From Betaproteobacteria bacterium (GTDB taxonomy: Bacteria; Pseudomonadota; Gammaproteobacteria; Burkholderiales; Burkholderiaceae_C), in assembly GCA_947453725.1 (NCBI GenBank), contig CANGHH010000004.1, positions 1 to 64,000 of the forward strand: a stretch of 64,000 nucleotides of DNA, in the 5' to 3' direction. How positions within the stretch are numbered: position 1 is the first letter of the stretch; each line of letters starts with the position of its first letter. The notes under the pieces are model-generated. The model made no database searches, was not told where the DNA came from, and worked only from the letters and a program-made list of their open reading frames with translations. Of the stretch, positions 11,978 to 21,909 are shown one piece after another. A program made the position numbers and the translations under genes.

Positions 11978-13441
11978 GTGCTGACGATGACTACGACGAC
12001 CCGACTCCAGCCGTTCAACCCCGACAGGCCGCATCACCCAGGCGGCCTGATCATCCTGCAACTCAACGAAGTCAACTTCGATCTGGTCGAGCGCTACCTG
12101 GCCCAGCACGCCCTACCCGGTTTCCGCCAGTTGCTGTCGAGATTTGACCGCGTCGAGACCTTCGCCGAGACCAAATACGAAGAACTGGAGCCCTGGATCC
12201 AGTGGGTCTCGGCCCATTCCGGCCTGCCCTACGGCGAACACCGCATCTTTCGCCTGGGGGACGCCGTCAACAGCCGGGTGCCGCAGATCTTCGAAATGAT
12301 GGAACAGCAAGGCCTGACCGTCGGTGCCATTTCGCCGATGAATGCCCGCAACGAACTGCGGCACCCGGCCTACTTCATTCCCGACCCGTGGACCGCGACG
12401 CCGTCTGACGCGTCCGGCTATTCGCGCCGGCTGACTGCGATGCTGCAGCAAACGGTCAATGAGAACGCCCAGGGGCGCATCGGGGTACGGTCGCTGTTGA
12501 CCATCGCCGAGGCCATGCTGCGCAGTTTCAACCCCGCCGGCACCGTGCGCCTGCTGAAGCTGATCGGCCAGGCCAAGGGCCGGCACTGGATCAAGGCGCT
12601 GGTGCTGGACCAGCTGATCCACCTGGTGCACCTGCGCCTGTTCAAGCAGAAGCGCCCGGATGTGTCCTTCGTGTTCCTGAACGCTGGCGCGCACATCCAG
12701 CACCACTACTTGTTCAATTCCCCGCACTCGAACACCACGGCAAAGAATCCGGCGTGGTACGCACCGCCCGACGCCGACCCGGTGCTCGACATGCTGCAGG
12801 TCTATGACCGCATCCTGCTGGACCACCTGGCGCTCAGCGAGCAGCGCGGTACGCGGCTTATCGTGGCCACCGGTTTGACTCAGGTGGCCTACGACCGCGT
12901 GAAGTTCTATTACCGCCTGCGTCATCACGCGCAATTCCTGGCGCTGTTCGGCGTGGCGCCCCAGCAGGTGCTGCCGCGCATGACGCGCGACTTCGAGGCC
13001 CTGTTCGATGACGAAGGCGCCGCGCAGCGCGCTGCAGCCGTGTTGCGCAGCGTGCGCATGGTGCGCGACGGCGTGCCGCTGTTCGGCGAGATCGAAGAGC
13101 GCGGCGCCAGCCTCTTCGTCACGCTGACCTACCCGCACGAGATCCTGCCGGCCGACGCGGTGGCCTACGCCGGGGGCACGGTCGGCCCGGTGTTGCCGCA
13201 TGTGGCTTTCGTGGCCGTCAAGAACGGCATGCATTCGACGAAAGGCTTTGCCTTCTTTTCGCCAGGCAGCCCGGCCAGCCTGCCGGCCCAGCCGGTGCAT
13301 GTGTCTGCCCTCTTCGGTCTGACACTGCAGGCGGCCGGACTGGCGCCTGGCACAACCGCTTCAACTGCCGGTGCTTCGCGCACCCCGCCAGCGTCTGACA
13401 CCGCGCAGCAACGGCCTGAGAAGGCGGTACAAGGGGAATAG
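11978..13441 (+). CDS. Alkaline-phosphatase-fold-like protein of a polysaccharide locus, function unknown
   Basis: This 487-residue protein (GTG at 11978; an ATG three codons later is equally possible) has no signal peptide. The start LIILQLNEVNFDLVERYL and the later DVSFVFLNAGAHIQHHYLFNS and RLIVATGLTQVAYD resemble the strand-metal-site rhythm of the alkaline phosphatase/phosphodiesterase superfamily. The usual metal ligands are only partly visible (Asn where an Asp is common, HIQHH). It may trim or transfer a phospho-group on the glycan or on a carrier, but this is inference. Its 3' end overlaps the convergent nucleotidyltransferase gene by 81 bases. Confidence 0.55.
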   Translation: MLTMTTTTRLQPFNPDRPHHPGGLIILQLNEVNFDLVERYLAQHALPGFRQLLSRFDRVETFAETKYEELEPWIQWVSAHSGLPYGEHRIFRLGDAVNSRVPQIFEMMEQQGLTVGAISPMNARNELRHPAYFIPDPWTATPSDASGYSRRLTAMLQQTVNENAQGRIGVRSLLTIAEAMLRSFNPAGTVRLLKLIGQAKGRHWIKALVLDQLIHLVHLRLFKQKRPDVSFVFLNAGAHIQHHYLFNSPHSNTTAKNPAWYAPPDADPVLDMLQVYDRILLDHLALSEQRGTRLIVATGLTQVAYDRVKFYYRLRHHAQFLALFGVAPQQVLPRMTRDFEALFDDEGAAQRAAAVLRSVRMVRDGVPLFGEIEERGASLFVTLTYPHEILPADAVAYAGGTVGPVLPHVAFVAVKNGMHSTKGFAFFSPGSPASLPAQPVHVSALFGLTLQAAGLAPGTTASTAGASRTPPASDTAQQRPEKAVQGE

Positions 13442-14602
13442 TCGATCTGGCAATGCGAGAACCCGCAAGTCGTGCGGGTTGAGCGAGATGCGCCACAGCA
13501 CGTCCACCCCTGCCCGCCAACTGCCCATCAGCAGCAGTCGGCTGAGCGTCCAACTGACATGCCATCGCAGGGGCAAGGCATAGGCCTCGCTCCACCAAAC
13601 GCCAGGGGCCCCCAAAGCAATGGCCACCGTGCGGCTGAGCAGCCGTTGCGCCAGCAAAGGCCGAAGGTGTCGCGTCAACGCGGCAGGTATGGTCCAGCCG
13701 AACAAGTCGCGAGCCAGCGCCAGAGCCAGGAGCAGCGAGCGCGTGCATCCCGCCTGCTCGGCGCGCCGCAGCACCGCAGGCCAGTCCCAGGCACAGTGAT
13801 CCAGAATTCGAGGCAGGTCAGCCAGCCACTTCAAACGGTACCAGCCATGGCGCCCGCCGTGCTCGCAGATGTAGAGCAGGAGGTCCACGCTGTTCATCAC
13901 CGGCAGCGTGGCGTCTCCGGCGGCCAGGCGCTCTCCCTCCAGCAAAAGCTGTTCAGGTTGGAGCCGGAACAGATGCGGGTTGTCGCTGAGTTGCCAATGC
14001 AGTTCGACCTTGCCGTGCTCAGCACTCCTGTGAGTTTCCTCGAACTGATGACGCTCCAGAAAGCGGCGGTGCAGGGGGCCTCGCTCTGCCAGGTCCCAGC
14101 AGGTCTCCTCAGGGTCCCACTTCAGACCATGCGCCGAAAGCACGGCGCGCGCCTCGTCGAGTTGCGCGGGCGACACCCACACATCGTGGTCATTGACGTG
14201 ACGCTGGCCCGCATCGCCGTAGTAGCGCAGGCCGGTGGTGCAGCCCTTGAAAGTCAGCCACGGAATGCCAGCTTCGCCGAACCAGCGCTCAAAGAGCAGC
14301 AGGGTGCGCAAGCCTTGCATCGCCTTGAGCGCGTTGTGGCGCGCCTCGGCTGCCAGCGGCGCGATCAGGCCGGGCGGCAGCAGGCTGGCGTGCAGTCGTT
14401 TGAGTCGGGCGTGAACCAGCGGGCCGATACGGTGGCGCGTGATGACCAGTTCGAGGAAGGCTGGAACGTCGATGATCGCCAGAAGGCGCTCGACTGTACC
14501 TTGGTCAGATTCGGGGCGCTGGGCGCCGCAGCACGCGCAGGCCAGTTGAAATTCGGGCGAAAATTGAGCGATGTTGAGTGCGTATGGGCGCATGTCAGTC
14601 AT
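13361..14602 (-). CDS. PF14907-type nucleotidyltransferase family protein of lasso-type clusters
   Basis: This is a 413-residue protein when started at the ATG at 14602 (MTDMRPYALN; ATG 14593 is an alternative). The block WLTFKGCTTGLRYYG...RHVNDHDVWVSPAQLDEA (about residues 125-165) is the KG...DxD nucleotidyltransferase core of the PF14907 family, where Asp residues hold the metal. Members are commonly found beside PqqD-like, HPr-kinase-like and asparagine-synthetase-like genes, including the paeninodin lasso cluster, but their substrate is unsettled. Here it is divergent from the PqqD gene across 77 bases, so it likely shares its control region. It ends inside the 3' end of the gene at 11978-13441. 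Confidence 0.8.
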   Translation of the reverse strand: MTDMRPYALNIAQFSPEFQLACACCGAQRPESDQGTVERLLAIIDVPAFLELVITRHRIGPLVHARLKRLHASLLPPGLIAPLAAEARHNALKAMQGLRTLLLFERWFGEAGIPWLTFKGCTTGLRYYGDAGQRHVNDHDVWVSPAQLDEARAVLSAHGLKWDPEETCWDLAERGPLHRRFLERHQFEETHRSAEHGKVELHWQLSDNPHLFRLQPEQLLLEGERLAAGDATLPVMNSVDLLLYICEHGGRHGWYRLKWLADLPRILDHCAWDWPAVLRRAEQAGCTRSLLLALALARDLFGWTIPAALTRHLRPLLAQRLLSRTVAIALGAPGVWWSEAYALPLRWHVSWTLSRLLLMGSWRAGVDVLWRISLNPHDLRVLALPDRLFPLYRLLRPLLRGVRRWRGARSTGS

Positions 14603-14679
14603 GCATCCGCTCGTGTTTCTTCCAGGCTGGCGCGCCACCCGCCAAGAATTCTTCCATCCATCCAGCGTACTTGCACACC
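14603..14679. promoter_or_regulatory. Divergent control region of the lasso-type cluster
   Basis: These 77 bases separate the minus-strand nucleotidyltransferase gene from the plus-strand PqqD-like gene, so they should carry both promoters. No clear sigma-70 boxes or Shine-Dalgarno were visible. The assignment rests on position alone. Confidence 0.35.
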
Positions 14680-14961
14680 ATGACCGACATCCTCGCTACC
14701 ACCACCATCAGCCGAATCGAAGGCCTGCTCGCCACCGAGGTCGATGGCGAAACCGTGCTGATGCATGTGGAACGTGGCAATTATTACGGCTTGGCGCGCA
14801 CCGCCCACCGCATCTGGGAATTGCTGGAGACGCCCCAGACCTTTGTGGCGCTTTGCAGTCAGCTGCAGTCCAGTTTCGCCGGCCCCGCCGAACGCATCGA
14901 GGCCGACACGCGACGCTTCTTGCTGGCCATGGCAGCAGAGTCTTTGGTCCTGTTGACATGA
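14680..14961 (+). CDS. PqqD-like peptide-recognition protein (lasso B1 / RRE)
   Basis: This 93-residue winged-helix RiPP recognition element is expected to bind the precursor leader and present it to the B2 protease and cyclase. The signature stretch is ATEVDGETVLMHVERGNYYGL followed by ARTAHRIWELLETPQTFVALCSQL, as in PqqD and lasso B1 proteins. I chose the ATG at 14680 (MTDIL). The open frame runs back to 14578, but those residues look non-coding. Its stop overlaps the start of the cyclase gene (ATGA at 14958-14961), so the two are translationally coupled. Confidence 0.85.
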   Translation: MTDILATTTISRIEGLLATEVDGETVLMHVERGNYYGLARTAHRIWELLETPQTFVALCSQLQSSFAGPAERIEADTRRFLLAMAAESLVLLT

Positions 14962-16904
14962 ACCTGATCTACGGCGTCCATGGCATGGGCGCCGCGCTTG
15001 ACCCGGAGACGGCTCGACAGGCCTTGGCCAGCATGAGCCATGCGGCTGTGGCAACGGTCGTTCCTGCCAACGGCCTGTGCTGCGCCCACCAGATTGTGCC
15101 CAGTGGCCCAGCGTGGGGGTATCTCGGCCATCCACCGCAGGCTGCAGTCCCTTGCCCTGCACCAGGATCACCGGGCGCACGAGTCAAGATCCAGGCACAG
15201 TGCCGGCTCGACAACCGCACAGAGTTGTTGCACCGATTCGGCTGGCCCGACGACGCTCCGCACCCCGATGCATCGCTGATCGTCGAAGCCTATGGCCGCT
15301 ACGGCGTGGACTGCGTTTCGCACCTCAGGGGCGACTGGGCCTTCGCCCTGTGGGACGCCGATCAGCAGCGCCTGCTGCTGGCACGCGACGCCACCGGCAA
15401 CAGCGCGCTGTTCTGGTGCCAAGGCAGAGGTCTGCTGGTGTTCGCCAGCACCCTGCCAACCTTGCTGGCCGCCAGGGCCCTGCCCGCCCGACCCAACGCG
15501 CGGTGGATGGCCGGTTTGCTGACCGTCTTCACCGACCCGGCGCACCCCACCGAAACAGCGTTTGACGGCGTACACAGCCTGCCGCCCGGGCACTTGCTGA
15601 GCGTCCAGGGTCGTTCAGCGAATGCCCATCGTTGGTGGCTGCCTGAGACTTTGGCGCCCCTCGACGGCGTTCCACACCCGGTGCTGGAGGAAGAGTTCCT
15701 GGCGCTGTACGACGACGCCGTACGCCAGCGGCTACGTCGTGATGGCGGAACAGTGGCCGCCACGCTCAGCGGCGGGCTGGACTCGGGCTCCGTGGTGGCA
15801 CTGGCGGCGCCCGCGCTGGCTGCAACGGGCCAGCGCCTGACGGCCTACGTGCACGTCCCTGGCTTCGACGTCCATGCCGCAACCGCCGGAAGAACCACCG
15901 ATGAGTGGCCGCTGGCACTGGCCACCGCGCGCCATGTGGGCCATGTAGACCCGGTGGCCTGCCGCAGCTTGCAGGGCACGCCACTGGGCGCCATGCGGCG
16001 CTGGCTGGATATGGCGGCCTACCCGACGCACGGACCCAGCCACTGGTACTGGATTCTGGACATCCTGCAGCAGGCGCATGACGCCGGCGCCAGTGTGCTG
16101 TTGACAGGCCAGGGCGGCAACGCGACCGTGTCTTTCGCGGGATCGGGCGATCTGCGGCCGCAGCTGGCCGCGATGCAGTTCGGGCACGTTGTGCGCGAAC
16201 TGTGGCGAGAGGACGCCGGGCTGCGGTTGGCCATCGCGCGACGCTTGCTCAAGCCCGCGCTGCGGCCGGCCTGGCATGGGTTGAAACGAGCAAGGGCGCG
16301 CAGCCTGCAGCCCGTGTCCTGGCAGGACTACGCCCTGCTCAACCCGGCGCTGGCCGAGGACCTGAAGCTGACGGCGGCCATGGAACGGGCGGGTCAAGAC
16401 CCGACCTTTGTGGCGGTATCGAAGCAAAAAATGGCGCTCTGGCGCCTGGGCCTGAACCGCTGGGCAAACGGACCGGGTGTGCACTGGGCCCAGTTGAGCC
16501 TGCATTTTCAAGTCGAGGCACGCGACCCCACGCGTGACCAGCGGCTGGTGGAGTTCTGCGCCCGCCTGCCCGATGCCCTGTTCTGGGCAAACGGCAAGCA
16601 AAGGGGCTTGATTCGCCACACCATGCGGAAGCACTTGCCGGAAGCGGTGCTGGCCAGCACGCGCAAAGGTTTGCAGTCGGCCGACCTGCGCGCCCGGCTG
16701 CTGGCCAGCAAAGCCGAGCTGTTGCACGAAGTGGATGCGGTGTCGCAAAACGCCCAGGTGCGGGCCTGGCTGGACGTGCCCAGGCTTCAGCGGTCGGCCC
16801 TGGCGGCGGTGGCTGGCGGCAGCCCGACGGCGGGCGACCATGTCAGCGCCGGTCACCTGCTCAGGGCCCTGATGGCGGCGATGTTCATCGTCCGCCACAC
16901 CTGA
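14958..16904 (+). CDS. Asparagine-synthetase-like lasso cyclase (C protein)
   Basis: This 648-residue protein has two parts. The N-terminal third is a class II glutamine-amidotransferase-like domain without the catalytic Cys2 (it starts MNLIYGVHG). The C-terminal part is an ATP-pyrophosphatase domain with the PP-loop SGGLDSG at residues 271-277. Loss of Cys2 fits lasso cyclases, which AMP-activate an Asp or Glu side chain and let the core N-terminus attack it. RGDWAFALWDADQQRLLLARDATG is the usual AsnB-type stretch. The open frame extends upstream to 14571, but the ATG at 14958 overlaps the PqqD stop and gives the family N-terminus. An ordinary asnB is unlikely given the neighbours. Confidence 0.85.
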   Translation: MNLIYGVHGMGAALDPETARQALASMSHAAVATVVPANGLCCAHQIVPSGPAWGYLGHPPQAAVPCPAPGSPGARVKIQAQCRLDNRTELLHRFGWPDDAPHPDASLIVEAYGRYGVDCVSHLRGDWAFALWDADQQRLLLARDATGNSALFWCQGRGLLVFASTLPTLLAARALPARPNARWMAGLLTVFTDPAHPTETAFDGVHSLPPGHLLSVQGRSANAHRWWLPETLAPLDGVPHPVLEEEFLALYDDAVRQRLRRDGGTVAATLSGGLDSGSVVALAAPALAATGQRLTAYVHVPGFDVHAATAGRTTDEWPLALATARHVGHVDPVACRSLQGTPLGAMRRWLDMAAYPTHGPSHWYWILDILQQAHDAGASVLLTGQGGNATVSFAGSGDLRPQLAAMQFGHVVRELWREDAGLRLAIARRLLKPALRPAWHGLKRARARSLQPVSWQDYALLNPALAEDLKLTAAMERAGQDPTFVAVSKQKMALWRLGLNRWANGPGVHWAQLSLHFQVEARDPTRDQRLVEFCARLPDALFWANGKQRGLIRHTMRKHLPEAVLASTRKGLQSADLRARLLASKAELLHEVDAVSQNAQVRAWLDVPRLQRSALAAVAGGSPTAGDHVSAGHLLRALMAAMFIVRHT

Positions 16905-16927
16905 AACCACCCCTCGAGACGTCTCAC

Positions 16928-17515
16928 ATGGCCGATCTTCAGTTTTTCAGGGCGCAGGGTGTCTGCACACTTTGGTTCACCGGTCTGCCAGGTGCAGGCA
17001 AGAGCACGCTCGCCGATGCGCTGCACGTTGAGTTGCTGGCAGGCGGCTTGCCTTCGATTCGTCTGGACGGCGATCAACTCCGTACAGGTCTGAATGCCGA
17101 CCTGGGCTTTGGCCTCGAGCACCGACGCGAAAACGTGCGCCGTGCAGCCGAGGTGGCCAAGCTGTTCAATGGCACCGGCTTCATCGTCCTGGCCTCTTTC
17201 GTGTCACCGGTGGCAGCGGACAGGTGCCTGGTACGCCAGATCGTTGGCCGAGGGCGCTATGTTGAAATTCACGTCGACGCGCCGCTGGCGACCTGCGAAG
17301 CACGCGACCCCAAGGGCCTGTATCGGCAGGCACGCCAGGGTCAGATCGACCATTTCACCGGCGTTTCGGCCGCTTACGAGGTGCCCAGCGGCCCGGATGT
17401 CCTGCGCGTGGATGCTGCTTCGTGCGGGCCCGCGGCCTCGATCGCAGCACTGCTGCCAGCCTTGGCGGCTCTTGGACGGTCGCGCAACACACCGAACAAT
17501 CCTCAAATCAGGTGA
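16928..17515 (+). CDS. cysC: Adenylylsulfate (APS) kinase
   Basis: This 195-residue APS kinase converts APS and ATP to PAPS, the donor for sulfotransferases. The P-loop GLPGAGKST is at residues 19-27. DGDQLRTGLNADLGF and HRRENVRRAAEVAKLF are the APS-binding blocks, and DPKGLYRQARQGQIDHFTGV is the lid region. It stands alone, without cysD, cysN or sulfate-uptake genes, between the lasso cyclase and the precursor. The sulfotransferase three genes downstream would use its product. This placement points to dedicated PAPS supply for a tailoring reaction rather than sulfate assimilation. Confidence 0.9.
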   Translation: MADLQFFRAQGVCTLWFTGLPGAGKSTLADALHVELLAGGLPSIRLDGDQLRTGLNADLGFGLEHRRENVRRAAEVAKLFNGTGFIVLASFVSPVAADRCLVRQIVGRGRYVEIHVDAPLATCEARDPKGLYRQARQGQIDHFTGVSAAYEVPSGPDVLRVDAASCGPAASIAALLPALAALGRSRNTPNNPQIR

Positions 17516-17542
17516 CAGGCGCTGCACCATCCGCGTCATTTC

Positions 17543-17570
17543 TTGGTTATCATTTTCGCGGCATTTGAAT
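17543..17570 (+). promoter_or_regulatory. Candidate promoter of the lasso precursor gene
   Basis: TTGGTT (17543-17548) and TTGAAT (17565-17570) are 16 bases apart in a locally AT-rich patch upstream of the precursor. The -10 is a poor match, so this is a guess supported mainly by base composition and by the 92-base gap after the APS kinase gene. Confidence 0.3.
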
Positions 17571-17607
17571 TAAGCGCAATCCCTTACTCCCTTCCTAGGT
17601 GATCTAC

Positions 17608-17751
17608 ATGGAAAAGCAAATCGTTTCTGTCGAACCAACCCACTTGGTCTTGCCGGACTGGGAAGCCCCCGAACTGGTGAAGGTCGATGTGTCGACTGGA
17701 ACCCTCGCATGGTTATCCGGCACCGATGACGGCGCTGCCGCGTCGTCCTGA
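17608..17751 (+). CDS. Putative lasso-peptide precursor (47 residues)
   Basis: This small gene has an AGGTGA Shine-Dalgarno at 17597-17602, five bases before the ATG. The leader holds Trp18-x2-Pro21-x-Leu23-x3-Asp27-Val28, close to the Tyr-x2-Pro-x-Leu leader pattern bound by B1 proteins and, as I recall it, to the paeninodin leader, which also has Asp-Val at this point. Thr32 sits at the expected -2 position if the core starts at Ala34. The predicted core, AWLSGTDDGAAASS, would place Asp40 at ring position 7 or Asp41 at position 8. The last residue is Ser, the site phosphorylated by HPr-kinase-like enzymes of this class. There is no Tyr, so any sulfation would be on Ser or Thr. The cleavage site and ring are inference. 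Confidence 0.7.
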   Translation: MEKQIVSVEPTHLVLPDWEAPELVKVDVSTGTLAWLSGTDDGAAASS

Positions 17752-17773
17752 TCGGGCAAAGGCTTCCGAACTG

Positions 17774-17800
17774 AATGGCCGGCGCAAGCCGGCCATTTTC
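17774..17800 (+). terminator. Perfect GNRA-loop hairpin after the precursor gene
   Basis: AATGGCCGGC (17774-17783) pairs perfectly with GCCGGCCATT (17788-17797) around a GCAA tetraloop (17784-17787), and TTC follows. It lies 22 bases after the precursor stop and ahead of the kinase gene. It looks like a partial terminator or an mRNA-stabilising stem that would give more precursor than enzyme transcript. The U-run is short, so readthrough into the tailoring genes is expected. Confidence 0.7.
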
Positions 17801-17850
17801 ATGTGGCCAGCGATGTGGCCCGCAGCGCGAAACCACCGCCCACGACCATC

Positions 17851-18771
17851 ATGACCGAGCCCTTTGCCGGTCAGGCCTTCGGTCTGACTTTCCACTGCCA
17901 GCAGGTCTTGCCTGAGTTAACCCCTTGCGCGCGCAGCACGGCGCATGGGTCGACCGTCTCCATCGACTGGTTGGCCGACACAGCCCCAGCGCCAGCACTG
18001 AACCTGGACCTGGACCAAGGGCTGTTCAGGGGCACACCCAGCAGCTTCGACCTGCGAGTGCCCGGCATCGCCGGTTACCACGTCACCGCCGAGCGCATTG
18101 CGATCAGCCCGGCGCCCGGCGTAGCCCCAGGCAGCGTACGGGCCTTTCTCTTCGGCTCGGCCCTGGGCGCCCTGCTGCAACTGCGCGGATTGACCGTGTT
18201 GCACGGGTCGGCGGTGCAACGGCCCGACGGCACCGCGGCGGTGTTCTGCGGTTCTTCGACCGCGGGCAAATCGACACTCGCCGCGGCGCTGGCCCAGCGC
18301 GGCCACCCGCTGCTGTCTGACGACCTGACGGCGCTGCGCTTCGACGGCGATGGCCAGGTCTGGTGCCTGCCCGGCCTGGCGCGCACCAAGCTCTGGCGCC
18401 ATGCCCTGGATGCACTGGGCCTCGCAGACCAAGCCCACGCCGGCACCCAGGTGAGGCCGGATCTGGACAAGTACTCGCTGCCCTTCGGGCTGGCGACGCA
18501 GCCAGCGCCCTTGCGCCGCTTCTACGAACTGCGCGCCCATGAGCAAGGCGAGCTGGCCTTTTCCGAGGTCAAGGGCTTGGCGAAGTTCAACGTGCTGATG
18601 GCCCACACCTTCCGCCCGACCTTCTTGCCTGCCATGGGGCTGCAAGCGCAGCACCTGCGACGAATTTCGGCGCTGGTGCCGCTGCTGTCGGTGTCGCGCA
18701 TCGACCGGCCAAGGTCAGCTCAGACGCTCGACGCCATCTCCAGCCAGCTGGAGGACGAGTGGCAGGCCTAG
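17851..18771 (+). CDS. HPr-kinase-like peptide kinase of the lasso cluster
   Basis: This 306-residue protein (ATG 17851; an in-frame GTG at 17803 lies close to the hairpin and is less likely) carries a Walker A-type motif GSSTAGKST at about residues 134-142, after the strand TVLHGSAVQRPDGTAAVFCG. LLSDDLTALRFDGDGQVWCLPG follows, as in HprK-related kinases. In paeninodin-type clusters this family phosphorylates the C-terminal Ser of the precursor, and the local precursor ends in Ser-Ser. It follows the precursor and hairpin directly, and its stop overlaps the sulfotransferase start by 13 bases. HprK-related kinases of polysaccharide/exosortase loci are the main alternative family. Confidence 0.8.
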   Translation: MTEPFAGQAFGLTFHCQQVLPELTPCARSTAHGSTVSIDWLADTAPAPALNLDLDQGLFRGTPSSFDLRVPGIAGYHVTAERIAISPAPGVAPGSVRAFLFGSALGALLQLRGLTVLHGSAVQRPDGTAAVFCGSSTAGKSTLAAALAQRGHPLLSDDLTALRFDGDGQVWCLPGLARTKLWRHALDALGLADQAHAGTQVRPDLDKYSLPFGLATQPAPLRRFYELRAHEQGELAFSEVKGLAKFNVLMAHTFRPTFLPAMGLQAQHLRRISALVPLLSVSRIDRPRSAQTLDAISSQLEDEWQA

Positions 18772-19622
18772 CCACACCGGTGCTGGTCAGCGGGCAGATC
18801 GTCTGGCTGGCGTCCTACCCCAAGTCGGGCAACACCTGGCTGCGCAGCCTGATCACGGCCTGTCGCCAGCCGCCTGGACGGAACCTGGATATCAATGCCC
18901 TGACGGCCCAGGGCGCAGCCAGCCGCGCAACCCTGGATGAACTGCTGGGACTGGACACCGGTGACCTGACGCGGGACGAATTGCGCCAGTTGCTGCCGCT
19001 GGCCTACCGCCGTTGGTCGGCTCAACCGGCCGATCTGGTGTTTCTGAAGACCCATGACGCCCATGCCACCGGTCCAAGCGGCGAGCCCATCTTTCCGTCG
19101 GATGCCACGCGTGCGGTGGTGCACCTGGTGCGCGACCCGCGCGATGTGGCGGTTTCGGCCATGCACCACTGGGGCCTGAGCCTGGACCAGACCATCGCCC
19201 GCCTGAACAACCCGGGGCTATGGGTGGCAGAGGATGCCGGTGGCGGCCCGCTGGTGCCCCAATGGCTGTCTGACTGGACCGGCCATACCCGAAGTTGGCT
19301 CGGCTGCCCGCTGCCGGTGCTGACCGTCCGCTACGAAGACCTGCTGGCCGACACACCGAGGCTGTTTCGGAAAATCCTCGACCACATCGGCATGGACGTC
19401 GAAGCGGCTCGGGTCGTCGATGCGATCGAGCAATGCCGCTTCGACCGCTTGCAGGCTCAGGAGCGTGATGGCGGCTTTGTCGAGCGCAGGCGCACGGCGA
19501 CCTCGCCCTTTTTCCGCACGGGCAAGGCCGGCGGCTGGCGGCAGGTACTGACGGAGGCCCAGAACGCTGCGCTGGTGGCCGCGCACGGCGACCTGATGCG
19601 CCAGTATGGCTACCTGACATGA
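18759..19622 (+). CDS. PAPS-dependent sulfotransferase
   Basis: This 287-residue Sulfotransfer_1-type protein starts at a GTG overlapping the kinase gene. The 5'-phosphosulfate loop YPKSGNTWLR is at residues 20-29, the 3'-phosphate-binding region VRDPRDVAVS is near 124-133, and the C-terminal RTGKAGGWRQVLT matches the RKGxxGDWK-type PAPS motif. It would move sulfate from PAPS to a hydroxyl or amine. Its place between the kinase and the B2 protease, with an APS kinase in the same unit, suggests the lasso peptide as acceptor. A glycan acceptor in the surrounding polysaccharide locus cannot be excluded. It overlaps the B2 gene by four bases. Confidence 0.85.
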   Translation: MAGLATPVLVSGQIVWLASYPKSGNTWLRSLITACRQPPGRNLDINALTAQGAASRATLDELLGLDTGDLTRDELRQLLPLAYRRWSAQPADLVFLKTHDAHATGPSGEPIFPSDATRAVVHLVRDPRDVAVSAMHHWGLSLDQTIARLNNPGLWVAEDAGGGPLVPQWLSDWTGHTRSWLGCPLPVLTVRYEDLLADTPRLFRKILDHIGMDVEAARVVDAIEQCRFDRLQAQERDGGFVERRRTATSPFFRTGKAGGWRQVLTEAQNAALVAAHGDLMRQYGYLT

Positions 19623-20140
19623 ATGGGGTGGCGCCTGGCCGCAGCCGTCTGCAGCGCCTCTGGCACCTGCCAGGACGTCGCAAGCAACTGCTGATGGAGG
19701 CGGGCTGGGCGCTGGCCCGCACGGCCTGGCGCGTGCGCCGCTGGCGGTTTGCAAGGCTGGCGGCCACACTGGGCCAACTGTCCGCAGCCGGCGCCTGCAG
19801 CGTCGCCCCTGAAAGGCAGCCCGCGCCCAGTGAGCTGGTCACGGCCAGGGAGGTGCAGTGGGCCATCGGCGCCTGGACGCGCAGGCTGCGACCGGCGCCC
19901 ACCTGCCTGATGCAGGCGGCCGCTGCGCAAGGTCTGCTGGCCCGCCGTGGCCTTGCCAGCACGCTGTATTTCGGGGTGCAGAGCCTGACGGCAACCGCCA
20001 GCGGCCCAGGCAGCCAGAGCGCCCGGGGCGCCCACGCCTGGTTGCAGTGTGCAGGCTTGATCGTCACCGGCGAGCGCGAGGCCGCCGCCTTCCGCCCCAT
20101 TGCGGCCTACCGCCTGGCGCCCGAGGACCGGAACCCGTGA
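19619..20140 (+). CDS. Lasso peptide B2 protease (transglutaminase-like)
   Basis: This 173-residue B2-type leader peptidase (PF13471-like) carries Cys96 in PTCLMQAAAAQGLLARRGL, the expected nucleophile context, and His139 in GAHAWLQCAG, the HAW block. The Asp often seen two to six residues after that His is not evident (Ala145 stands in the usual xDG spot), so the third catalytic residue is uncertain. It would cut the leader before the core Ala in concert with the PqqD-like B1. Start and stop overlap the sulfotransferase and ABC genes by four bases each. Confidence 0.82.
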   Translation: MNGVAPGRSRLQRLWHLPGRRKQLLMEAGWALARTAWRVRRWRFARLAATLGQLSAAGACSVAPERQPAPSELVTAREVQWAIGAWTRRLRPAPTCLMQAAAAQGLLARRGLASTLYFGVQSLTATASGPGSQSARGAHAWLQCAGLIVTGEREAAAFRPIAAYRLAPEDRNP

Positions 20141-21909
20141 GAAGCGAGGATGCCGGTTCGACGGCCACCCAGGTGGGTGCCGGACTGCGCGCCTACCTCG
20201 CCGATCTGATCCAGGTGCTGGGCCCCAGACGCGTGCTGTCCGCCGTCGCGCTGGTGCTCTGTGGCACGCTCTTCGAGAGCCTGGGCCTGCTGATGCTGGT
20301 GCCGCTGCTGCAACTGGTCAACGGAACGACCCGCACCCCCGCGCTGCAATGGCTGGTCGACCACGGCCTGCAGCCCAGCCTGGGCGCGGTGCTGTCGCTG
20401 TTCACCTTGCTGATGCTGCTGCGGGCCGCGGCGGCGCGGCAGCGCGAGCTCAGCCTGCTGAAGCTGCGGCTGGACTATGTGGAACGGCTGCGCCGCAGGC
20501 TGGAGCAGGCGCTGGCCGGGGCGTCGTGGACCTTCCTGGTCCGGCTGCGCCATGGCGAGGTCATGCACCTGTTGTTCGAGCAACTGGCGCGCATCAACCA
20601 GGGCACGCATCAGCTGATGCAGGTGCTCTCGGGCGCGGGGCTGGGGCTGGCCAGCCTGCTGGTGGCCGCCTTCATCGCCCCACTCTGGACCCTGGCCCTG
20701 GTGGCGCCCTTTGCGCTGCTGATCTGGGCCTTGCGGCGCCGGCCGGGATCGGCGGCGGCCATGGGCCAGCGGCTGGGTCAGGGTCAGCGGGCGTCGATGT
20801 CGGTGGCGCGCGATTTTCTGGCCGGTCTCAAGCTGGTCAAGGCCCACGCCGCTGAAAGCCAGCACCTGGCCGAGTTCCAACGACGGGCCCAGACCCTGCG
20901 CATCGAGCAGCTGGACTTCGTCCACCACCAATCCGTGACCCGGGGCTGGTTCGAGGTGGTGGGCGCCTTGCTGTTGTCGGCGCTGCTGTACGGTGCGGCC
21001 ACCTGGGGCGGCATGGGTCTGCCCGAACTGTTGCTGATCGTGCTGGTGTTCTCGCGCCTGCTGCCCGTGCTGCGGGATGGCCAGTTGCAGGTGCAGCAAC
21101 TGGCCCACATGCTGCCGGCTTTCCAGGAGCTGCAGGGCTGGATCCAGCGCTGCGAGGCCCATGTCGAGCCGGCCCCCGACACCGCGCTGCCGCCGCTACC
21201 GCTGCAACACAGCCTGACTTTCGAGCAGGTCGTGGTGAACCACGGCGGTGCCAGCCCAGCAGCCTTGGCGGGCGTCAACCTGGTGCTGCCTGCACGCGAG
21301 ACCACCGCGCTGATGGGACCATCGGGATCGGGCAAGACCACGCTGGCAGACATCGCCCTGGGCCTGTTGCCACCGTCGTCGGGCGCGGTGCGGGTCGACG
21401 GACTGTCCCTGGCGGACCCGCAGGTGCAGCGCCGCTGGCGGCGCTCGGTGGCCTATGTCGCGCAGGACACGTATCTGTTCCCTGGAACCATCCGCGAGAA
21501 CCTCTGCTGGTTGTCTGGCCAACGCCCCGACGCCGACTTGTGGGCCGCGCTGGAACAAGCCGACGCCACGCCCTTCGTGCAAGCCCTGGCGGCGGGCCTG
21601 GACCACCGCCTCGGCGAGCGCGGTGAGGGCCTGTCGGGCGGCGAACGTCAGCGCATCGCCCTGGCCAGGGCGCTCCTTTGCCAGCCCGAACTGCTCGTTC
21701 TGGACGAAGTGACCAGTCAACTGGACCTGGCCAGCGAAGAACGCGTGCTGGCCGCGCTGGATAGGCTGCGCGGCCAGGTGACGATCCTGCTGATCGCGCA
21801 CCGGGAAGCCGCCCTGCGCCATGCGGACCTGGTCGTTGTCCTGGAGCAGGGCCGGGTGGTTGAGGTTAGCCAGGGCCGGCCAGATGCGCAGGCAGCCTGC
21901 CAAACTTGA
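20137..21909 (+). CDS. ABC exporter (permease-ATPase half-transporter) of the lasso cluster
   Basis: This 590-residue protein has about six transmembrane helices in residues 1-330 and an ATPase domain behind them. Walker A is GPSGSGKTT at about 394-402, the signature is LSGGERQRIALARAL, Walker B is LLVLDEVTSQLD, and the H-loop is LLIAHREAAL. It should work as a homodimer exporting the mature peptide, which is also the usual self-protection. I chose the GTG at 20137, which overlaps the B2 stop (GTGA). The open frame upstream to 19858 is a shadow inside the B2 gene. The domain lacks the N-terminal C39 peptidase of bacteriocin exporters, which suits a cluster with its own B2 protease. Confidence 0.88.
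   Translation: MRSEDAGSTATQVGAGLRAYLADLIQVLGPRRVLSAVALVLCGTLFESLGLLMLVPLLQLVNGTTRTPALQWLVDHGLQPSLGAVLSLFTLLMLLRAAAARQRELSLLKLRLDYVERLRRRLEQALAGASWTFLVRLRHGEVMHLLFEQLARINQGTHQLMQVLSGAGLGLASLLVAAFIAPLWTLALVAPFALLIWALRRRPGSAAAMGQRLGQGQRASMSVARDFLAGLKLVKAHAAESQHLAEFQRRAQTLRIEQLDFVHHQSVTRGWFEVVGALLLSALLYGAATWGGMGLPELLLIVLVFSRLLPVLRDGQLQVQQLAHMLPAFQELQGWIQRCEAHVEPAPDTALPPLPLQHSLTFEQVVVNHGGASPAALAGVNLVLPARETTALMGPSGSGKTTLADIALGLLPPSSGAVRVDGLSLADPQVQRRWRRSVAYVAQDTYLFPGTIRENLCWLSGQRPDADLWAALEQADATPFVQALAAGLDHRLGERGEGLSGGERQRIALARALLCQPELLVLDEVTSQLDLASEERVLAALDRLRGQVTILLIAHREAALRHADLVVVLEQGRVVEVSQGRPDAQAACQT

Follow-up and report, generated by a model that had tools for sequence, protein, structure and literature searches.

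Overall organization of the gene cluster

This study concerns a candidate lasso peptide cluster of a Betaproteobacteria bacterium (assembly GCA_947453725.1). The cluster lies within a stretch of 64,000 nucleotides (positions 1 to 64,000 of contig CANGHH010000004.1; hereafter, the window), where nine genes with unbroken frames span positions 13361–21909. Pfam and NCBIfam scans took in ten proteins, namely the nine products and that of one upstream open reading frame (ORF), and all nine genes named in a preliminary description of this DNA were found. The first gene encodes an NTP_transf_5 nucleotidyltransferase of 413 residues (NT, 13361–14602; PF14907, 163 bits, E = 1e-47), and its homologues occur in other kinase loci. 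Next come B1 (14680–14961, 93 residues), a PqqD-like protein of the kind that recognizes the leaders of ribosomally synthesized and post-translationally modified peptides (RiPP recognition element, RRE); C (14958–16904, 648 residues), an asparagine synthetase-like lasso macrolactam cyclase; a stand-alone adenosine 5'-phosphosulfate (APS) kinase (16928–17515, 195 residues); and A (17608–17751, 47 residues), the precursor. They are followed by K (17851–18771, 306 residues), an HprK-like lasso precursor kinase; ST (18759–19622, 287 residues), a sulfotransferase of the type that uses 3'-phosphoadenosine 5'-phosphosulfate (PAPS); B2 (19619–20140, 173 residues), a transglutaminase-like leader peptidase; and D (20137–21909, 590 residues), an ABC exporter.

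The order of the genes agrees with the preliminary description. They do not form a single row, however, because NT is on the minus strand and divergent from B1, and the other eight genes are on the plus strand. Four-base overlaps, said to join most of the genes, occur at only three of the seven same-strand junctions (B1/C, ST/B2, and B2/D). K and ST overlap by 13 bases, or by none if a later GTG is the start of ST. The remaining gaps are 23 bases (C to the APS kinase), 92 bases (APS kinase to A), and 99 bases (A to K). The 3' end of NT overlaps by 81 bases a convergent ORF (11978–13441, 487 residues), which has no Pfam match at E 0.01 and no NCBIfam match at E 1.

Precursor and proposed core peptide

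The 47-residue product of A (MEKQIVSVEPTHLVLPDWEAPELVKVDVSTGTLAWLSGTDDGAAASS) matches no family in Pfam or NCBIfam. The leader contains the sequence WEAPEL, that is, W(−16)xxP(−13)xL(−11), which fits the recognition motif of lasso RREs, [Y/W]xxPx[L/V/I/A/F/Y]; for a paeninodin-like precursor, a Trp at −15 has been described (PMC13381572). Thr is usual at position −2 of lasso precursors (PMC10368454), and this convention places the cut after TL and makes Asp the eighth residue of the core. The proposed core of 14 residues, AWLSGTDDGAAASS (17707–17748), would thus consist of a ring closed between Ala1 and Asp8 and the tail GAAASS, with the cut site predicted from this register. An acidic residue at position 7, 8, or 9 corresponds to the ring size of lasso peptides. 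The beginning of the core, AGPG, is in our view reminiscent of paeninodin. The combination of the leader motif, T(−2), and an acid at positions 7–9 was found in one of the 543 small ORFs (30–90 residues) of the window, where residue shuffles gave an expectation of 0.025; the pattern was set after A and its relatives had been viewed.

A ends in SS and so has the C-terminal Ser that is the acceptor in lasso peptides made with HprK-type kinases. Tyr is absent from all 47 residues, so the acceptor of RaxX-type peptides is lacking. Sulfation of Tyr was therefore rejected, which leaves Ser or Thr, a phosphate, or a sugar as acceptors.

The register is also seen in relatives, where the search for precursor homologues was run with the loci of the window dropped. 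In a genome of the same genus (G037; genomes and the loci read from them are given G and L numbers), the gene after the cyclase, which is 47% identical to C, encodes a 50-residue homologue of A (51% over residues 15–47). Read in this register, its end, ...DVTTATLAGPGQGPDGPFAGSLGS, also has Asp at position 8 and Ser as the last residue. Candidates near K in other loci fit both the register and the C-terminal Ser of A; they were chosen by eye from pattern-search lists that were rich in chance ORFs and partly filtered on a Ser ending. No candidate was seen in these lists for G764. In the proposed register, several loci containing ST have cores of 13–15 residues with a ring of eight and a tail of 5–7 residues, the tails being GAAASS (window), GGASYS (G460), GSSVHS (G188), GAFYQTS (G731), and GNCGS (Tistrella).

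An 11-bp GC-rich hairpin with a GCAA loop (17773–17798, plus strand) begins 21 bases past the stop codon of A; the fold of 17752–17815 has an energy of −28.4 kcal/mol (z = −2.67). It is not among the sites listed by a terminator scan, and a promoter scan gave one site against 0.6 expected. The hairpin may act as an attenuator or as an element at the mRNA end, and it may separate the expression of the precursor from that of the enzymes.

Lasso enzymes and kinase

The enzymes for leader recognition, leader removal, and ring closure are all present. B1 is a discrete RRE protein that exceeds the cut-off of PF05402 (57 bits); among the NCBI models, the lasso PqqD family NF033536 fits it best. B2 matches the lasso B2 model NF033537 with 65 bits (cut-off, 33) and Transglut_core3 with 65 bits. 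C matches PF00733 (93 bits), and of the NCBI models the one for lasso cyclases, NF033535, gives the best match (E = 1.4e-61). The protein starts with MNLIYG and contains the motif SGGLDS; the earlier observation that the cyclase has no Cys2 is thus correct. D contains ABC transporter domains only (PF00005 and PF00664; 108 bits), and the peptidase domain of RaxX-type transporters was not found in it.

K matches the HPr kinase family PF07475 only weakly (21 bits, cut-off 33). In the alignment, however, it keeps LHG, GSSTAGKS, and SDD, which correspond to the H, G, GxGKS, and DD of the lasso kinase motif (PMC10368454), and its relatives lie in lasso loci. The target of HprK-like lasso kinases is the C-terminal Ser of the precursor in its linear form (PMC8498205); BsfK (PMC10368454) and LppK (PMC13381572) phosphorylate Ser3 instead. 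In pseudomycoidin, the nucleotidyltransferase adds hexoses onto the phosphate (PMC8498205).

The product might be modified and yet unthreaded, either branched-cyclic or linear, as are the linear polyphosphorylated peptides (LPPs). The LPP systems share the RRE, HprK, NTP transferase, and ABC exporter with the window (PMC13381572), and the proposed core, with 14 residues and a tail of small residues, contains no bulky plug. In addition, G764 has a locus of K, ST, and B1 in a genome without a match to lasso B2. In the window, on the other hand, both the cyclase and B2 are present and unbroken, ring position 8 is an acid, and no signal peptidase family was matched among the ten scanned proteins, which sets the cluster apart from the LPP type. 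We consider an unthreaded product to be quite improbable.

Sulfotransferase and predicted supply of PAPS

ST belongs to the family PF00685 (Sulfotransfer_1, 80 bits). It retains the stretches SYPKSGNTW, KTH (in KTHDA), and RDPRDVAVS, and PAPS-dependent activity is predicted from them; we take these stretches to correspond to the 5'-phosphosulfate-binding (5'-PSB) and 3'-phosphate-binding (3'-PB) motifs and to include the catalytic His. The nearest solved structures are the sulfotransferases of glycopeptide antibiotics, Teg14, Teg12, and StaL (60 to 51 bits). The similarity is low (60 bits at best) and their substrates are non-ribosomal; the acceptors are phenols of the glycopeptides. Most of the sulfotransferases from lasso loci share HDA/HEA and GF-E stretches; an FFR-G stretch is also present in the non-lasso L147. 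In a tree of ST sequences, eight of the nine lasso sulfotransferases were grouped with support of 88/91, which is below the program's line for good support, and that of L051 fell outside; the tree also contains one unrelated sulfotransferase ORF of L084 mislabelled as lasso. The tree gives mild support to the grouping.

The APS kinase matches PF01583 with 188 bits and exceeds the cut-offs of PRK03846 and TIGR00455. It aligns over 153 residues with the APS kinase part of PAPS synthetase 1, and its nearest solved chains are APS kinases. It is the sole PF01583 match of the genome. ST, 1.2 kb away, is the sole match to PF00685, the sulfotransferase family that was searched genome-wide. A CysD homologue is encoded elsewhere in the genome (381.5 bits, against 396.6 for the model). 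Strong APS kinase matches were found in nine of the 11 genomes containing ST that were examined (G000, which is the window genome, G096, G141, G188, G316, G375, G431, G460, G619, G731, and G764); the two without a match, G316 and G375, are 88 and 89% complete.

A probable parallel is G431, in which the sole PF00685 match and the only strong APS kinase are both beside lasso genes. One contig has ST next to a cyclase close to its start, and the APS kinase, B2, K, B1, NT, and D are at the start of another. Reading frames that we take to be transposase-like lie at both contig ends of this split cluster (L050 1–260 and L081 1–450), and the APS kinase begins with residues that, to our eye, resemble the end of ATP sulfurylase. 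Outside the window, lasso genes with a neighboring APS kinase were found only in G431 and G388. With one probable parallel (G431) and one counter-case (G388), such an APS kinase is rarer than the pairing of K with ST described below. Six stand-alone APS kinases of the same genus (L090–L095) have no lasso genes within the 5.7–16 kb read.

It may be asked whether the APS kinase is only a passing gene of sulfur assimilation with no link to ST. Gaps of 23 and 92 bases flank it, PF01583 is matched in 46 of 80 genomes of the same genus (many in frames of CysNC length, a few weakly), and the APS kinase of G388 lies in a lasso locus although that genome has no PF00685 match. In the window, however, the gene stands between C and A and is read in their direction. 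Its genome encodes no other APS kinase, and the one PF00685 sulfotransferase of that genome is a close neighbor; G037 has neither. A passing gene is therefore improbable in our judgement.

Pairing of the kinase and sulfotransferase in relatives

Relatives of K were searched at E ≤ 1e-8 in 398 non-self genomes at the order level and 368 at the class level, and relatives of ST at E ≤ 1e-20 and E ≤ 1e-15, respectively. The K loci were annotated with profiles built in this analysis, dropping ABC matches at E > 1e-40 and NT matches at E > 1e-8; in one further search, ABC and gmhA matches at E > 1e-10 were dropped. K relatives were found in 11 of 398 and eight of 368 genomes, and ST relatives in six of 398 and four of 368. 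All six ST genomes at the order level are among the 11 K genomes; ST abuts K in five of them and lies beside the cyclase in the sixth (G431). The hypergeometric probability of this co-occurrence is 9e-11 when genomes are counted and 5e-5 when genera are counted. At the class level, three of the four ST genomes have K, with ST abutting it (3e-5). Among the 19 non-self K loci, ST abuts K in eight (G096, G141, G188, G316, G375, G619, G731, and G764), lies on another contig in G431, and is absent from the stretch read in ten, some of these stretches being cut short by the edge of the contig (G224). In G460, a genome of the same genus, C, K, ST, B1, and NT occur together with a candidate precursor.

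The pairing extends to plasmids. Four of 72,556 plasmid records match ST at E ≤ 1e-12, in five places, and K abuts ST in all four places read, which are on Tistrella mobilis pTM3 and pTM1, Hyphomicrobiales UR115, and Thalassobaculum OXR-137; the last carries a full lasso set. A cyclase match is present in the stretch for nine of the 13 K-ST pairs read outside the window (L031, L051, L052, L053, L082, L084, L151, L154, and L156). ST relatives are thus nearly confined to K genomes and mostly accompanied by a cyclase; lasso clusters with a kinase and a sulfotransferase are therefore a recurrent proteobacterial subtype in several genera.

The exact nine-gene order was not found in the other loci read. 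K and ST abut each other in several genera, and the APS kinase is only an occasional member of such clusters. Within the genus, the cyclase was found at E ≤ 1e-40 in three of 81 genomes (self, G037, and G460), and a search of genome contigs for related loci gave three cyclase-like loci at 28–33% identity. G037 possesses A, C, B1, K, B2, NT, and an ABC gene and has no match to either PF00685 or PF01583. Its lasso genes are on two contigs, L030 (4861–7200 and 9423–11888) and L144 (6305–8154). The cyclase and precursor of L030 lie, by inspection without family search, in an exopolysaccharide-type locus with its own HprK and NT genes, and B1, K, B2, and NT are found in L144.

NT often accompanies the pair, and a sulfated sugar therefore has to be considered. 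ST might act on a sugar or phosphate that NT and K place on the C-terminal Ser; the product would then be a sulfated phospho-glycosyl lasso peptide. The cluster encodes both of these enzymes. NT matches were found in the K-ST stretches of G096, G731, and G460 and, on further inspection, beside B2 in G141, G188, and G619. Sugars are substrates of many bacterial sulfotransferases. In G375, G316, and G764, on the other hand, no NT match was found within the stretches read, and the nearest solved sulfotransferases act on peptide antibiotics. The hexoses of pseudomycoidin (PMC8498205) nevertheless offer a precedent for a sugar on the phosphate. On balance, sulfation of a sugar or of the phosphate is an unlikely alternative.

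Several further features were noted at these loci. In G707, a PF00685 sulfotransferase of another kind is encoded at a distance of about 7 kb from K. The ST frame of G316 (L053 1407–2252) is broken by an internal TAA, and intact relatives exist in the same family. In G388, a single ORF (L055 8813–9220) joins a lasso-like precursor (KKTYQRPVL..TQ|GSAGKASD..) to an endosialidase-chaperone domain, Peptidase_S74 (Pfam, 38 bits). Two genomes of family f38 have genes with a Phage Tail Collar domain close to their lasso genes of the K-ST kind (L031 11737–12892 and L051 13641–14177).

Capsule-type surroundings

The cluster is situated inside a capsule/exopolysaccharide-type locus, with Poly_export, Wzz, Wzy_C, glycosyltransferases, an epimerase, and an SIS isomerase as neighbors. 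A glycan acceptor was kept as an alternative for this reason. On this alternative, the APS kinase and ST would serve the surrounding polysaccharide and only happen to be located in the lasso operon; an APS kinase is mentioned in two papers on sulfated capsular polysaccharides (PMC11641403 and PMC11766843). However, ST overlaps both K and B2 within the operon, and its relatives abut a lasso-type kinase in several genera. The cyclase and precursor of G037 are also in an exopolysaccharide-type locus, in a genome with no PF00685 match. Because of the linkage of K with ST, we judge a role for the capsule alone to be very unlikely. The possibility of a glycan modification, which the preliminary description named as a refutation of its proposal, is weakened by the same linkage, although the capsule-type locus does surround the cluster. 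Paeninodins and LPPs are often beside capsular loci in Bacilli, in a role called unknown by the source (PMC13381572); by analogy, the capsular setting here hints at the function of the peptide.

Comparison with known systems

The cluster shares with paeninodin and the proteobacterial lasso peptides of the HprK kinase type (Zhu 2016b,c, reviewed in PMC8498205; BsfA/BsfK, PMC10368454) the split B1/B2, the cyclase, an HprK-like kinase with the motif H/GxxGxGKS/DD, the ABC exporter, and often NT. The C-terminal Ser is likewise common to the characterized peptides, although BsfK uses Ser3. The window has both a sulfotransferase and an APS kinase, which the available parts of these two papers do not name for the characterized peptides. 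Paeninodins proper form a Bacillota RRE clade (PMC13381572), and the present cluster is not filed among them. Pseudomycoidin, a phosphoglycosylated lasso peptide, shares the kinase and the nucleotidyltransferase, and a sulfation branch is undescribed in the available part of its source (PMC8498205). The LPP systems (PMC13381572) share the neighborhood of capsule loci in addition to their common genes, but they lack the cyclase, have the signal peptidase-like LppS in place of B2, and belong to Bacillota.

HPr kinase and sulfotransferase genes were described in some lasso clusters of anaerobes and Firmicutes, with an unclear role, in 2014 (PMC4289311), and a review (PMC8498205) reports kinase and sulfotransferase genes in lasso clusters from Zhu 2016c. 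The hosts of those clusters are mainly Gram-positive, and the available parts give no product and no mention of an APS kinase. The earlier statement that no characterized product with both modifications is known stands in that no sulfated lasso peptide product was found in the literature, gene-level mentions aside, most subscription papers being outside our reach; the gene combination itself was already in print (PMC4289311). Within the same limit of access, no in-cluster APS kinase for lasso peptides was found.

RaxX is linear. The system of RaxX and RaxST (PMC8872720 and PMC9484694) shares with the window a ribosomal peptide with its own sulfotransferase, PAPS-forming enzymes, and ABC export. 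It differs in the Tyr acceptor, the double-glycine (GG) leader, and the peptidase-transporter, in place of which the window has a precursor without Tyr, an RRE leader, and B2 with the cyclase. RaxX is a tyrosine-sulfated RiPP (PMC8872720), and the PAPS for its sulfation is made by RaxP/RaxQ (PMC9484694). RaxX with RaxST and RaxP/RaxQ is an earlier example of a bacterial RiPP that is sulfated and for which the enzymes making PAPS are known by name.

Proposed pathway and its implications

The RRE, B2, cyclase, and precursor features, the K-ST pair in 13 further loci, and the location in one cluster of the only APS kinase and the only PF00685 sulfotransferase that the genome encodes support the earlier reading of a sulfated, and perhaps also phosphorylated, lasso peptide. 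We propose, with a probability of roughly two in three, a lasso cluster of the HprK kinase kind extended by a dedicated sulfation branch, in which ST would sulfate a Ser or Thr of the phosphorylated 14-residue peptide with PAPS from the APS kinase. The chemical steps, cut site, modified residues, threading, and function are inferred from the genes. The precursor would be made as 47 residues and bound by B1 through W(−16)xxPxL of its leader. While the precursor is still linear, K would place a phosphate on its C-terminal Ser, and NT may then modify this phosphate. The APS kinase would convert APS, supplied by the ATP sulfurylase of the cell (represented by the CysD homologue), to PAPS, with which ST would sulfate Ser4, Thr6, Ser13, or Ser14 of the core. 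B2 would then cut after TL, C would close the ring between Ala1 and Asp8, and D would export the product.

Several observations weigh against this proposal, besides the capsule-type surroundings. The scores of B1 (57 bits) and C (209 bits) are below the curated values of NF033536 (80 bits) and NF033535 (525 bits). No cyclase was found in the stretches of four of the 13 K-ST pairs (L048, L087, L153, and L155); in the case of L048, from G188, the cyclase, B2, B1, ABC, and NT genes are on another contig. The pair of G764 (L087 8083–10189), in the genome without lasso B2 noted above, may serve something else, such as a non-lasso peptide, and the 16 kb read for the ST relative of G519 contain no lasso genes. 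The gene set of G431 is split over two contigs. In G388, the APS kinase (L055 4227–4787) is between D and NT on the opposite strand, in a genome with no sulfotransferase of the PF00685 family. Finally, the C-terminal Ser is the one obvious acceptor common to the cores of the loci containing ST, and this residue is the expected site of the kinase and is also present in relatives without ST.

The tail of the window peptide has no bulky residue able to hold a thread. This raises the speculative and rather unlikely idea that anionic groups are the stopper of the knot: phosphate, sulfate, or both, possibly with a sugar, would be placed on the C-terminal Ser before cyclization, and K and ST would be partner enzymes of threading. 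The ST-adjacent kinase of Tistrella pTM3 (L153, 7997–8971) and the second kinase of Thalassobaculum (L156, 8021–8971) have lost the His and second Asp of the motif; without these catalytic residues, they would fit a role as presenters of the substrate to ST. The first Thalassobaculum kinase (L156) keeps both residues, and the second Asp is replaced by Glu in L155. The broken ST of G316 was left out of this integrity alignment, as it was from the ST tree. Against a stopper of this kind, the cores of G096, G141, and G375 appear longer, and some of the tails contain Tyr, Phe, or His. If the idea is true, the lasso would be locked by modification and not by side chains.

The cluster is a compact test case, as its genome encodes no second PF00685 sulfotransferase or APS kinase, and G037, of the same genus, is a natural control that has the kinase branch without the sulfation genes. 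The predicted masses of the sulfate and phosphate forms are distinguishable at high resolution: the calculated [M+H]+ is 1290.5597 for the lasso peptide, 1370.5165 with SO3, 1370.5260 with HPO3, 1450.4828 with both groups, 1532.5788 with phosphate and a hexose, and 1612.5356 with all three. The recurrent subtype provides further candidates and makes it possible to test what anionic groups do in lasso peptides, a possible function as stopper among them.

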